From the NCBI RefSeq assembly GCF_014822185.1, contig NZ_QVLR01000103.1, positions 1-64,000 of the forward strand: 64,000 bases of DNA. Reading direction: 5' to 3'. This stretch comes from Azoarcus sp. Aa7 (GTDB lineage: Bacteria; Pseudomonadota; Gammaproteobacteria; Burkholderiales; Rhodocyclaceae). Of this stretch, positions 3,964 through 7,298 are shown one piece after another. Every line of letters starts with the position of its first letter. Position 1 is the first letter of the stretch. A program made the position numbers and the translations under genes. The notes under the pieces were generated by a model, which worked only from the letters and a program-made list of their open reading frames with translations, ran no database searches and was not told the DNA's origin.

Positions 3964-4668
3964 TCAGCCCGCCTTGAACTGCGCCGAGATGCGTTCCATC
4001 ACGGTGTGATGGTTGGCGTGTGCGGCGAGGTTGTAGGCCGTCAGGTTTGCAGCGCGGATGAACGCACGTTCGACCTGTCCGGCGGAGACATCGATGTCGA
4101 TGATGTTGATGCAGGCGGGCTCCTGCTCGAAGGCCTTCAGGCCGTGCAGCGAGGCCCCGACGACATGGCTCAGGATGACGCGATTGACCGCGTCGTGGGC
4201 GACCACCAGCAGATTGGCCCAGCCGTCCGACAAGACGAGTTCGAGCCAGACTTCGAGCACGCGCCGCTGGAAGTCCGCCCAGGATTCGCCCCCCATGAAG
4301 CTTGCGCCCGGCTCGGGAGCCCGGTCGTAGGCGCGGGTGATGATGTGATCGCGCCGCTCCGGTGGCACCTCCGCGAGGCGCCCGGCGCGGATTTCCTTCA
4401 GGCGCGGCTCCTCGCGCACCGGCAGGGTCCGCCCGTCCAGCACCAGGCTCGCCGTGTGCGCGGTACGCGCCATGCCGGAAATCAACGCATCGTCGAAAGG
4501 AACCTCCCGCAGCATCGCACCTGCCGCGCGCGCCTGCTCGCACCCGCGCTCGGTGAGGGTCACGTGGCGCGGGTCGATGGGGCGTCCGGCGGCATCGAAG
4601 TACTGCACCTCGCCGTGGCGCATCAGATAGACGCGTCGGCGACGATCCGTGCCGGCCAGGCGACTCAT
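3964..4668 (-). CDS. Histidine phosphatase (phosphoglycerate mutase) family protein
   Basis: A 234-residue member of the histidine phosphatase superfamily. The phospho-accepting motif LMRHGE is at residues 15-20 with His18 as nucleophile, and a second conserved His lies in LVVAHDAVNR. These enzymes remove or move phosphate on small molecules or proteins; the substrate cannot be told from sequence. The start overlaps the stop of the upstream DUF6285-like gene as TGATG, so the two are translationally coupled. It is the last gene of the thiolase-to-phosphatase operon. Next to a kinase likely to phosphorylate a hydroxyacyl-CoA, a role in undoing or proofreading that phosphorylation is conceivable, but this is inference from position only. 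Confidence 0.8.
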   Translation of the reverse strand: MSRLAGTDRRRRVYLMRHGEVQYFDAAGRPIDPRHVTLTERGCEQARAAGAMLREVPFDDALISGMARTAHTASLVLDGRTLPVREEPRLKEIRAGRLAEVPPERRDHIITRAYDRAPEPGASFMGGESWADFQRRVLEVWLELVLSDGWANLLVVAHDAVNRVILSHVVGASLHGLKAFEQEPACINIIDIDVSAGQVERAFIRAANLTAYNLAAHANHHTVMERISAQFKAG

Positions 4669-5069
4669 CAGCCCTGCTCCCCGAGGTACTTCGGGTTGCT
4701 TTCCATGACCTTCGCGCGGATGGTTTCCAGCAGATGCTGCCGCGCCGCATCGCGCCAGACGCCGGCGTCGCCCCGCCCGGCACGAATCGCGTGTGCGAAC
4801 TCGCGGTCGAGCCCGGTGAGCTGCCGCCGCAGTTCGGCCCCGCCGGCCGGTTCGTCGCGCCCGGCGTGTCCCAGCAGGCTCGCCAGCGACCGGAGTTCCC
4901 TGCGCTCGCCGTCCTCGCCGTTCTTCAGCTGGCGCATCGCGATGATCATGGCGTTGGCGATCATCAGCGCGGCGTGCTTCCGCTCGGGCGGCAGCGCGGG
5001 CAGGATCTCTTCCCGCAACACGTTCCGCGCGGTTTCGAGCAATTGTTCGCCGATCGGTTCGTCGCGCAT
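4668..5069 (-). CDS. Small DUF6285-like protein, possible LvaB-like partner of the kinase
   Basis: A 133-residue, largely helical protein without signal peptide or membrane segment. It begins MRDEPIGEQLLETARNVL and has a helix containing ANAMIIAMRQL, the pattern I associate with DUF6285. Both ends are coupled by TGATG overlaps, to the kinase upstream and the phosphatase downstream. In Pseudomonas putida levulinate catabolism a small protein, LvaB, accompanies the acyl-CoA kinase LvaA; gene size, position and neighbours suggest an equivalent here. The protein at 51975-52418 has a similar helix pattern and also sits directly upstream of, or beside, a kinase gene. Function is inferred from context. 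Confidence 0.6.
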   Translation of the reverse strand: MRDEPIGEQLLETARNVLREEILPALPPERKHAALMIANAMIIAMRQLKNGEDGERRELRSLASLLGHAGRDEPAGGAELRRQLTGLDREFAHAIRAGRGDAGVWRDAARQHLLETIRAKVMESNPKYLGEQG

Positions 5070-6079
5070 CAGCGGGCCTCCGTCATGGTCAGGATTTCGT
5101 ATTCGAGTTCCGGCACGATGTGACCGGTCAGCGCGAGCATCAGCGAGGTCTCCTCGCCGGAGAGGTGACGCTCGGCCTGCTGCACGGCGATCACGGCCCA
5201 GTTCAGGTGCGCCATCACTTCCCAGTAGTGGATGTCCTCGTCTTCGAGGCGGCGCCCGGTGACGGATGCATAGCCGCGGTAGAAGTCCTCGCGCGCGCCG
5301 ACCCCGCCCGCCTCGCCCTTGCCGCCGAAACGCCAGCACTTGGCGCAGAACCAGCCGACGTCCTCGAGCGGGTCGCCCCAGCCGGAGAATTCCCAGTCGA
5401 GGATCGCGGTGAGTCCGCTCTCGTCCACCATGTAGTTGCCGGTGCGGAAATCGCGATGGCACAGGACGAGCTCGCCGCGCTCAGGCGCATTGATTTCGAG
5501 CCAGCGGAGGCCCCACTCCAGCGCGGGGTGCGCAGTGCGATGGCCGTCGAGGAAGCGGCGCATCCGTGCGACGTGCTGCAGCGCGGGCGACGAGCCCGGG
5601 GACGCCAGGAACGCGAGATCGTCGCGCGGCGGACGGATCGAATGGATGCGCCCGAGTTCGGCGCCGAGGCGTTCGAGCAGCACGCGGCGGTCGCCGCCGA
5701 GCTTCGCGTCGCGGACGACGACGTGGGAGGCCGCGACGCCGCCGACGAAGCGCATCACGAAGAACTGCTTGCCGATGAGGCTCGCGTCGCGGCACAGCCA
5801 CAGCGGCTCCGGCACCGTCACGCCAGCGGCGTGGGCCGCCTTGAGGAGAGCGAACTCCTCGGCACGGCAGTGGCTGCCCGACACCCCGGACGGCGCGTCG
5901 GTGCGCACGACCAGCTTCAGTTCGGGCGCGAAGGCGCCGCCGGCCACCTCGGCGTGGATGAACCAGTTTTCCTGGATCGAGCCCCCCGAGAGGAGCTTCG
6001 CCTCCCTGATCGATACGCGGTCGGCACCGGCCTCCCGTCGAATGAATGCTTCCAGCGCGCTGCGCATCTGTTCGTTCAT
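5069..6079 (-). CDS. Aminoglycoside-phosphotransferase-like kinase, probable hydroxyacyl-CoA kinase (LvaA-like)
   Basis: A 336-residue protein of the APH/choline-kinase-like fold. Visible kinase motifs are LVLCHRDFRTGNYM (catalytic loop, HRD with the Asn ligand) and ILDWEFSGWGDP (metal-binding Asp). The same fold is found as the N-terminal half of human ACAD10/ACAD11 and as LvaA, which phosphorylates 4-hydroxyacyl-CoA so that the phosphate can be eliminated. Here it lies between a DUF6285-like gene and an ACAD10/11-type dehydrogenase, which supports acyl-CoA kinase rather than antibiotic resistance. The ATG at 6079 was preferred over an in-frame GTG at 6088. The real substrate is unknown. Confidence 0.75.
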   Translation of the reverse strand: MNEQMRSALEAFIRREAGADRVSIREAKLLSGGSIQENWFIHAEVAGGAFAPELKLVVRTDAPSGVSGSHCRAEEFALLKAAHAAGVTVPEPLWLCRDASLIGKQFFVMRFVGGVAASHVVVRDAKLGGDRRVLLERLGAELGRIHSIRPPRDDLAFLASPGSSPALQHVARMRRFLDGHRTAHPALEWGLRWLEINAPERGELVLCHRDFRTGNYMVDESGLTAILDWEFSGWGDPLEDVGWFCAKCWRFGGKGEAGGVGAREDFYRGYASVTGRRLEDEDIHYWEVMAHLNWAVIAVQQAERHLSGEETSLMLALTGHIVPELEYEILTMTEAR

Positions 6080-6125
6080 GTTGTGCACACTCGTCCGTGG
6101 TTCGGAAATGCGTTCGCCCGGCGCA

Positions 6126-7298
6126 TCAGACTTCGCGCGCGATGCCCTTGATGACCCGCTTCGCGATGCTCCAGCGGTGCACCTCGGACGGGCCGTCGTA
6201 GATGCGAAACGCGCGCATGTCGGCGAAGATCTGCGCGACCGTGGTCTCGCGCGTCACGCCCTGCCCGCCGAGGATCTGCACGCAGCGGTCGACGACGCGC
6301 CAGCACGCTTCCGAGACGAGCACCTTGGACATGCTCGAGTCGTGGATCGCGAGGTGCCCCTTGTCGAGCACCCAGGCGGTGTGCCAGATCGCCAGCCGTG
6401 CAGAGTGGATGTCCATCTCGTTGTCGGCGAGCATGAAGCCGACGCCCTCGTGGCTGCCCAGTGCCTTGCCGAAGGCTTGGCGCCGACGGGCGTAATCGGT
6501 GGCGATGTCGTGGGCGCGGCGTGCGGCACCGAGCCAGCGCATGCAGTGCGTGAGGCGCGCCGGCGACAGGCGCACCTGTGCGTACTTGAAGCCCTCGCCG
6601 AGCTCGCCGAGGATGTTCGCGGCGGGCACGCGCACGTCGTCCAGGCGCACGACGCCGTGTCCGCCGGGGAAGCAGGTGTCGAGGGTGTCCATCGAGCGCT
6701 CGACGACGAAGCCCGGCACGTCGGTGTCGGACAGGAACATCGTGGCGCGCCCGTCCTCAAGCTTGGCCATGATGATCGCGAACGCGGCGCCGTCGGCACC
6801 GGTCGTGAACCACTTGCGTCCGTTGATGACGTAGTCGTCACCGTCGCGCACGGCGGTGGTCTGCAGCATCGACGGGTCGGAGCCGGCGCCCGGCGTGGGC
6901 TCGGTCATGCAGAAGCACGAGCGCACCTTGCCCGCAGCAAGCGGGCGCAGCCAGCGCTCCTTGTGCTCGGGGCGGGCGACGACCTCCATCAGGTGCATGT
7001 TGCCCTCGTCCGGCGCGGCGATGTTCAGCGCCACCGGCCCGAGCAGCGAGTAGCCAGCCTCCTCGAAGAACACCGCCTTGGCGCGGTGATCGAGGCCCAT
7101 CCCGCCGAATTCCTTCGACACGTGCGCGGACAGCAGTTCCGCCGAGCGCCCCTTGGCGATCAGTTCCGCGCGCAGTTCCTCGCTCGGCCCGTGCGCGGTC
7201 CGGCGCGGGTCGCGCTCGTAGGGAATGATTTCCTCCGCGATGAAGCGGCGCACCCTCTGCTGCAGTGCCGACAGCTCTTCCGACAGATCAAAGTTCAT
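6126..7298 (-). CDS. Acyl-CoA dehydrogenase of the ACAD10/11 type (LvaC-like)
   Basis: A 390-residue cytoplasmic FAD enzyme. Family motifs are FCMTEPTPGAGSDPSM (FAD/substrate loop) and QILGGQGVTRETTVAQIF. Where medium-chain enzymes carry the catalytic Glu of IYEGT, this protein reads IYDGPSEVH, the Asp-containing version I associate with the ACAD10/11 branch. That branch and LvaC act with an APH-like kinase on hydroxyacyl-CoAs, and a kinase gene follows directly. The upstream genes encode 3-hydroxyacyl-CoA dehydrogenase and thiolase, so the operon could process an acyl chain to acetyl- or propionyl-CoA. ATG 7298 was chosen because the conserved MNFDLSEE start is there; a longer open frame upstream is not conserved in style. 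An ordinary branched-chain acyl-CoA dehydrogenase remains possible. Confidence 0.85.
   Translation of the reverse strand: MNFDLSEELSALQQRVRRFIAEEIIPYERDPRRTAHGPSEELRAELIAKGRSAELLSAHVSKEFGGMGLDHRAKAVFFEEAGYSLLGPVALNIAAPDEGNMHLMEVVARPEHKERWLRPLAAGKVRSCFCMTEPTPGAGSDPSMLQTTAVRDGDDYVINGRKWFTTGADGAAFAIIMAKLEDGRATMFLSDTDVPGFVVERSMDTLDTCFPGGHGVVRLDDVRVPAANILGELGEGFKYAQVRLSPARLTHCMRWLGAARRAHDIATDYARRRQAFGKALGSHEGVGFMLADNEMDIHSARLAIWHTAWVLDKGHLAIHDSSMSKVLVSEACWRVVDRCVQILGGQGVTRETTVAQIFADMRAFRIYDGPSEVHRWSIAKRVIKGIAREV

Follow-up and report, generated by a model that had tools for sequence, protein, structure and literature searches.

How a 4-hydroxyacyl-CoA could be brought into beta-oxidation is the question raised by a run of six genes in a 64,000-nt stretch of DNA from Azoarcus sp. 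Aa7, hereafter the window (positions 1 to 64,000, forward strand, of contig NZ_QVLR01000103.1, assembly GCF_014822185.1). The contig, abbreviated C103, is 156,325 bases long and belongs to a genome of 5.39 Mb. The six genes all lie on the minus strand and encode, in order, a beta-ketothiolase, a 3-hydroxyacyl-CoA (3-hydroxybutyryl-CoA) dehydrogenase (HBDH), an acyl-CoA dehydrogenase (ACAD), a kinase, a small DUF6285 protein and a histidine phosphatase. From sequence and by analogy with characterised systems, we propose with a probability of about 0.82 that this run lets a 4-hydroxyacyl-CoA enter beta-oxidation via phosphorylation and elimination of the phosphate. The proposal is made because three of the proteins are homologous to LvaA, LvaB and LvaC, because the dehydrogenase carries a characteristic set of Arg, HCMR and Asp residues and because the same signature is found in 70 of 70 ACADs linked to related kinases. 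LvaABC are encoded by the lva operon of Pseudomonas putida, reportedly described by Rand and co-workers in 2017. The module is a further example of the known chemistry of LvaABC and of mammalian ACAD10 and ACAD11; more interesting are the phosphatase coupled to it and its concentration on one catabolic contig.

Relationship of the module to LvaABC

The LvaC-type ACAD of 390 aa (window 6126..7298; ATG at 7298, stop at 6126) contains three Pfam acyl-CoA dehydrogenase domains above cut-off. It is followed by an LvaA-type kinase of the APH fold (5069..6088; Pfam APH, 132.3 bits, cut-off 23.2), which starts at GTG 6088 (339 aa) or, with equal likelihood, at ATG 6079 (336 aa), and by an LvaB-type DUF6285 protein of 133 aa (4668..5069; Pfam DUF6285, 66.8 bits, cut-off 28.1). 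The kinase and DUF6285 genes overlap by 1 nt in a TGATG at 5069, and a second TGATG, at 4668, joins the DUF6285 gene to the histidine phosphatase gene with the same 1-nt overlap. Re-reading of starts, stops and the TGATG overlap bears out the coordinates and the coupling that an original prediction, made from the window alone, had given for kinase, small protein and dehydrogenase. The extent proposed there for the module, 4668-7298, is right for these three genes but one gene short, the coupled phosphatase (3964-4668) having been left out; a second copy of the module on C103 also lies outside this range.

The reference for comparison was the lva operon of Pseudomonas putida 31753 (locus L152), which was recognised by its gene order and not via the named KT2440 record. 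This operon encodes successively a PrpR-like regulator with a sigma-54 interaction domain, a kinase, a 118-aa DUF6285 protein, an ACAD, an SDR, an AMP-ligase-like frame and a symporter-like frame, LvaB and LvaC being adjacent with no gene between them. The window kinase is 52% identical to LvaA of L152 over 348 aa, the DUF6285 protein 37% identical to LvaB over 125 aa and the ACAD 67% identical to LvaC over 383 aa, which upholds the predicted homology to all three proteins. The assignment of the small protein to DUF6285 and LvaB stands on its Pfam match as well as on this identity, LvaB of L152 being itself a DUF6285 protein (Pfam, 72.2 bits, above cut-off). In the window kinase, the catalytic residues of the APH fold are intact, with HRD at positions 211-213, LDWE at 230-233, and H211, D213, N218 and D231 invariant in an alignment of 17.

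The module resembles LvaABC of P. putida in the homology of all three proteins, in the overlap of the kinase and DUF6285 genes and in the identical ACAD residues, but the order is A-B-C in P. putida and C-A-B in the window. Furthermore, a thiolase, HBDH and a histidine phosphatase are found where the lva operon has LvaD and LvaE, LvaR is present in the lva operon and not alongside the window module, and the window module exists in two copies. A contact between LvaA and LvaB was seen in a pulldown in KT2440, as cited in PMC6692424.

The AlphaFold2 model of the DUF6285 protein (pLDDT 93.3, pTM 0.76) is a helical bundle in which five helices are long and the sixth is short. A sequence search of the PDB with this protein gave a best E value of 0.13, Foldseek with the model returned 54 matches, none at an E value of 0.001 or better (best 1.1), and VIA-align gave Z values of at most 6.1 over 48 residues, which is within the chance level for helical bundles. 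The lack of a convincing PDB match for the predicted structure does not amount to a new fold.

Active-site signature of the dehydrogenase

ACAD10, ACAD11 and LvaC share three features published as specific to them, namely the motif HCMR, an Arg upstream of it and a catalytic Asp; in mouse ACAD11, the distance from the Arg, R626, to H634 of HCMR is eight residues (PMC12440821). The window ACAD contains Arg243, HCMR at 251-254 and Asp368 (of 390 residues), all in register with ACAD11 in an alignment to PDB 2wbi. Asp368 is the residue of IYDGPSEVH that was predicted to replace the usual Glu, and it does so. An ordinary ACAD was rejected on the basis of this signature.

The likeness to ACAD10 and ACAD11 put forward in the original prediction is upheld: Arg, HCMR and Asp are common to both. 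The window parts are nearer to LvaA and LvaC than to ACAD11, which a PDB search matched to the ACAD at 203.7 bits and to the kinase at 52.8 bits. The mammalian proteins also combine a kinase with an ACAD bearing these residues; however, the two are fused there and encoded by separate genes in the window (ACAD stop at 6126, kinase start at 6088). The window module is far more distant from the mammalian proteins than two other products of C103 genes, the kinase encoded at 102 kb and the ACAD encoded at 141 kb, and LvaB is unmentioned in the mammalian papers PMC12440821 and PMC11342911. Membership of ACAD10/11 proper was rejected in view of the unfused genes, of these closer C103 genes and of the position of the ACAD in a phylogenetic tree. 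There, the window ACAD falls in the LvaC clade (33 rows, support 100/99). The subclade that it forms with sequences from Aromatoleum, Thauera linaloolentis, Hydrocarboniphaga and Pseudomonas does not include LvaC of L152.

LvaC of L152 itself matches human ACAD11 at only about 193 bits, like the window ACAD, whereas the 141-kb ACAD of C103 reaches 391.5 bits. The ACAD domains of ACAD10 and ACAD11 were reported to be 62% and 56% identical to LvaC (PMC11342911), figures that may rest on a P. putida protein other than LvaC of L152.

Conservation among kinase relatives

A scan with an alignment of eight kinases found at least 586 relatives. The analysis used the best 80 of them, with flanks of up to 10 kb; among these, the nearest named ones are from Aromatoleum toluclasticum (95%) and A. 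diolicum (89%), which places the genome in or near Aromatoleum. An ACAD is encoded within 3 kb and on the same strand as the kinase in 70 of the 80 loci, and Arg, HCMR and Asp are present in every one of these 70 kinase-linked ACADs. The remaining ACAD rows of the 80 loci were read in alignments of at least 200 columns, shorter ones being dropped and some places being listed twice where neighbouring loci overlap; the signature was found in 2 of 19, which are close homologues of LvaC encoded some 8 kb away from the kinase gene.

DUF6285 is present in all 80 loci by a profile of 48 sequences, 47 of them drawn from the 80 loci themselves, and in 75 by plain clustering of the encoded proteins, in which several antisense-frame clusters were ignored. 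Its start lies between -30 and +15 nt from the kinase stop in 74 of 77 measurable loci. A chance neighbourhood is ruled out because of these linkages, 70/80 for the ACAD and 80/80 for DUF6285. The family is rare, being found in 9 of 369 genomes sampled from the class and in 10 of 61 genomes of close relatives; nine of these ten are among 17 genomes of the own genus, that of Azoarcus sp. Aa7 included. The full six-gene run also occurs in A. toluclasticum, A. diolicum, T. linaloolentis, Pseudomonas tumuqii, P. linyingensis and P. fluorescens PS691. Phospho-elimination of 4-hydroxyacyl-CoAs would hence be a cassette widespread in environmental bacteria and, in some of them, tied to beta-oxidation genes of its own.

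Proposed pathway and substrate

The first two steps of the proposed pathway are modelled on published work on LvaABC and ACAD10/11. The kinase, held by its DUF6285 partner, would transfer a phosphate from ATP to the 4-hydroxyl. The ACAD would then oxidise the acyl chain, the phosphate would leave C4 and the flavin would return the electrons, the net product being a 2-enoyl-CoA formed with no outside electron acceptor. According to PMC11342911, 4-hydroxyacyl-CoA is phosphorylated by the kinase, after which the ACAD carries out oxidation, phosphate loss and reduction; the products were 2-enoyl-CoA and some 3-hydroxyacyl-CoA, with no electron acceptor added.

In Azoarcus sp. Aa7, hydration, oxidation by HBDH and thiolysis by the BktB-type thiolase would follow, releasing acetyl-CoA and leaving an acyl-CoA shortened by two carbons. 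The HBDH gene (window 7333..8184, minus strand; NCBIfam NF004474, 450.9 bits, cut-off 408) ends 34 nt upstream of the ACAD start. The thiolase gene, first of the run (8234..9430, minus strand), encodes a protein above the cut-off of the BktB subfamily model NF006552 of NCBIfam (697.2 bits against 565) and below that of the BktB equivalog model NF042999 (679.1 bits against 725). With these two genes next door, the run would be a short beta-oxidation cassette, complete save for a hydratase.

The substrate would be a short or medium 4-hydroxyacyl-CoA. That it derives from a gamma-hydroxy acid released by ring opening, as first suggested for this locus, is a guess. Because RND, DUF1329, SDR and thiolase/OB-fold genes are common to C103 and the Pseudomonas clusters, a larger hydrophobic or alicyclic compound is suggested; these common genes gave a general picture only and no substrate name.

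The OB-fold/zinc-ribbon protein and thiolase-like pair is encoded at window 10898-12489, divergent from the module, and occurs also in the cluster of P. fluorescens PS691 (thiolase 81%). Two RND-pump-, DUF1329- and DUF1302-like sets, at 58481-65353 in window numbering and at C103:124084-130894, both match the same genes of the P. tumuqii cluster; the names RND and DUF1302 were given by eye and Pfam was run on the window DUF1329 only.

Alternative readings

Several observations weigh against phospho-elimination as the function of the run. The catalytic loop reads HRD in the window kinase but HGD in LvaA. No enoyl-CoA hydratase gene is found in the run of the window, and Pseudomonas and Thauera have one after the phosphatase; hydration would therefore come from LvaC itself or from elsewhere. 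LvaD, LvaE and LvaR are absent from the six-gene run and, as judged by eye, from the open reading frames of window 1-16000. The nearest LvaD-like SDR (55%) is encoded at C103:97628-98410, 88 kb away, though within about 15 kb of the second copy. For LvaE, the best match in the comparison with L152 reaches 29%. A tblastn search with the window DUF6285 protein found fewer of the 80 loci than the profile did, and the family is therefore divergent. Finally, a phosphatase beside the kinase would create a futile cycle unless it is specific.

The module could instead be a true levulinate or 4-hydroxyvalerate pathway, separate from the one to which the surrounding genes belong. Short chains are the substrates of BktB thiolases, the HBDH scores above the cut-off of a 3-hydroxybutyryl-CoA dehydrogenase model, and the homology to LvaA and LvaC fits as well. 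However, the module has no LvaE- or LvaR-like neighbour, its ACAD belongs to a different subclade from LvaC of L152, the P. tumuqii run is accompanied by a Rieske oxygenase, a CoA ligase and a further ACAD gene, and RND, DUF1329 and thiolase/OB-fold genes are common to the Pseudomonas clusters and C103. On balance, we consider a levulinate pathway unlikely.

Alternatively, the kinase could phosphorylate a free tertiary or ring alcohol for dehydration, like the 25-hydroxy steroid kinase (25-HSK, SDENCHOL_21286) of Sterolibacterium, the adjoining ACAD being an ordinary partner. In 25-HSK, a 40-kDa protein of the phosphotransferase family with relatives in Denitratisoma, a phosphotransferase likewise makes an alcohol leave (PMC8449060). 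The window also encodes a KstD-like flavoprotein (779.8 bits, just below the NF009478 cut-off of 789), and RND/DUF1329 genes are present on C103. But 25-HSK acts on free steroid tertiary alcohols, and the term acyl-CoA dehydrogenase does not occur in PMC8449060. In the window, by contrast, the ACAD has the phospho-elimination residues, 70 of 80 kinase relatives keep such an ACAD adjacent and DUF6285 is kept in all 80 loci by profile. The closest characterised kin found for the kinase is LvaA (52%), 25-HSK being known here by its description and not by its sequence. A steroid-kinase-like function is thus very improbable.

Role of the histidine phosphatase

The last gene of the run (window 3964..4668, minus strand) encodes a branch 1 histidine phosphatase of 234 aa with RHG near its N terminus (Pfam His_Phos_1, 132.1 bits, cut-off 21.7). 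A histidine phosphatase gene directly follows DUF6285 in 17 of the 80 kinase loci, six being of the window type and 11 of a distant type, nine of which can be aligned with the window protein, at 30-42% identity and over no more than 88 residues; one representative per type scores above the Pfam cut-off for His_Phos_1. In Zoogloea, a seventh phosphatase gene of the window type lies on the opposite strand to the kinase gene, at a distance of about 6 kb. In 13 of the 17 loci, there is an overlap of 1-4 nt between the longest phosphatase frame and the DUF6285 stop; among the other four, this frame starts further upstream in two and is separated by gaps of 10 and 69 nt in two. In the ACAD tree, every row that comes with a phosphatase belongs to the LvaC clade, where such rows make up 18 of 33 (window and Zoogloea counted), as against 0 of 42 in the other large clade. 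Locus L088 has a phosphatase and no ACAD in its short contig.

In Pseudomonas citronellolis LA18T, a histidine phosphatase gene was described beside the lvaA homologue, in a cluster in which an LvaB homologue was reported missing, and it was suggested that the phosphatase may remove the phosphate from 4-phosphovaleryl-CoA (PMC6692424). Kinase, histidine phosphatase and ACAD are thus united in one cluster as in the window, but in the window DUF6285 and phosphatase stand side by side, and the two are likewise found together in the 17 loci. Among the open-access papers listed in searches for a phosphatase-LvaB-kinase set, only PMC6692424 treats a phosphatase in an lva cluster.

That the phosphatase removes the phosphate on the main path, with the ACAD acting on the dephosphorylated product as this suggestion for P. 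citronellolis would have it, is extremely improbable, given that plain hydrolysis regenerates 4-hydroxyacyl-CoA, that in 63 of the 80 loci neither phosphatase type was seen immediately downstream of DUF6285 (the contigs of L106, L114, L121 and L139 ending too early to tell), nor was one in the second copy on C103, while the ACAD signature is retained, and that LvaB and LvaC are directly adjacent in the lva operon of L152. Since main-path hydrolysis would undo the kinase step, it is a better guess that the phosphatase of a phospho-elimination pathway clears or edits; most likely it would strip phosphate from acyl species that are dead ends or were phosphorylated in error.

This idea may tentatively be taken further, as a speculation that we ourselves find rather doubtful. 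The phosphatase would be a built-in editor, and kinase, phosphatase and phosphate-eliminating ACAD would form a three-way branch that clears wrongly phosphorylated or stalled phospho-acyl species. Two distant phosphatase types would have been recruited to the same coupled place, the inhibitory HAD domain of ACAD10 would be the animal counterpart, and the cassette, of which there are two copies, would act on alicyclic substrates after ring opening. The parallel with ACAD10 is loose because its HAD domain, which restrains the kinase, was reported to have negligible phosphatase activity (PMC11342911). If the phosphatase does edit the pathway, one may ask the same of the HAD domain in human ACAD10. 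The module provides a simple set of proteins with which the role of LvaB (DUF6285) and the reason for a kinase-coupled phosphatase could be tested.

Second module and related genes on the contig

A second module is located at C103:77278-82893 (the copy at 78.8-82.8 kb) and encodes a thiolase, an ACAD (89%), a kinase (81%) and a DUF6285 protein (58%). Its thiolase and ACAD genes are too close together to leave space for an HBDH gene, and no phosphatase was matched downstream of DUF6285. Similarly, A. toluclasticum has two modules, separated by about 71 kb of the same scaffold. The DUF6285 gene of the second copy on C103 has a 2-phosphosulfolactate-phosphatase-like gene (L003:13892-14704; Pfam, 94.6 bits) as its tail-to-tail neighbour.

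A search for ACADs in the genome of Azoarcus sp. Aa7 gave 37 matches, 30 of which were read for the motif. The full Arg/HCMR/Asp signature is present in five of these 30, and four of the five are encoded on C103, which makes up 2.9% of the genome: the window copy and those at 81, 139 and 141 kb. The fifth, a fragment, occupies bases 129-713 of contig C63, at the very end of that contig. An ACAD11-like kinase is encoded at C103:102065-103204 (262.7 bits to ACAD11), and the two further signature ACADs, including the 141-kb one compared with ACAD11 above, at C103:139329-142303. Together with the further signature ACADs of C103 and the C63 fragment, this kinase would make up a second phospho-elimination system in the genome. 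Because four of the five signature ACADs are concentrated on C103, the pathway of this contig is well suited to a search for further substrates of phospho-elimination.

APH-type kinases are also encoded at about 51.2 kb and 92.7-92.8 kb of C103, which holds five of the 13 APH matches of the genome. The kinase gene at 92.7 kb overlaps a gene for a 161-aa protein that has no Pfam match. This protein was considered as a distant LvaB, which is unsupported (hhalign probability 0.7%), and a scan of viral contigs gave no relative of it.

Other genes in the window

An N-6 DNA methylase is encoded at window 188-1168, at the contig edge (Pfam N6_Mtase, 205.9 bits), and is probably part of a restriction-modification system. 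Window 27137-36205 contains a gene for CofD of coenzyme F420 biosynthesis (154.6 bits) and one for a luciferase-like protein (161.7 bits). In the same region, frames resembling CofE, NpdG and FO synthase were recognised by eye only; F420 genes are unexpected for the genus.

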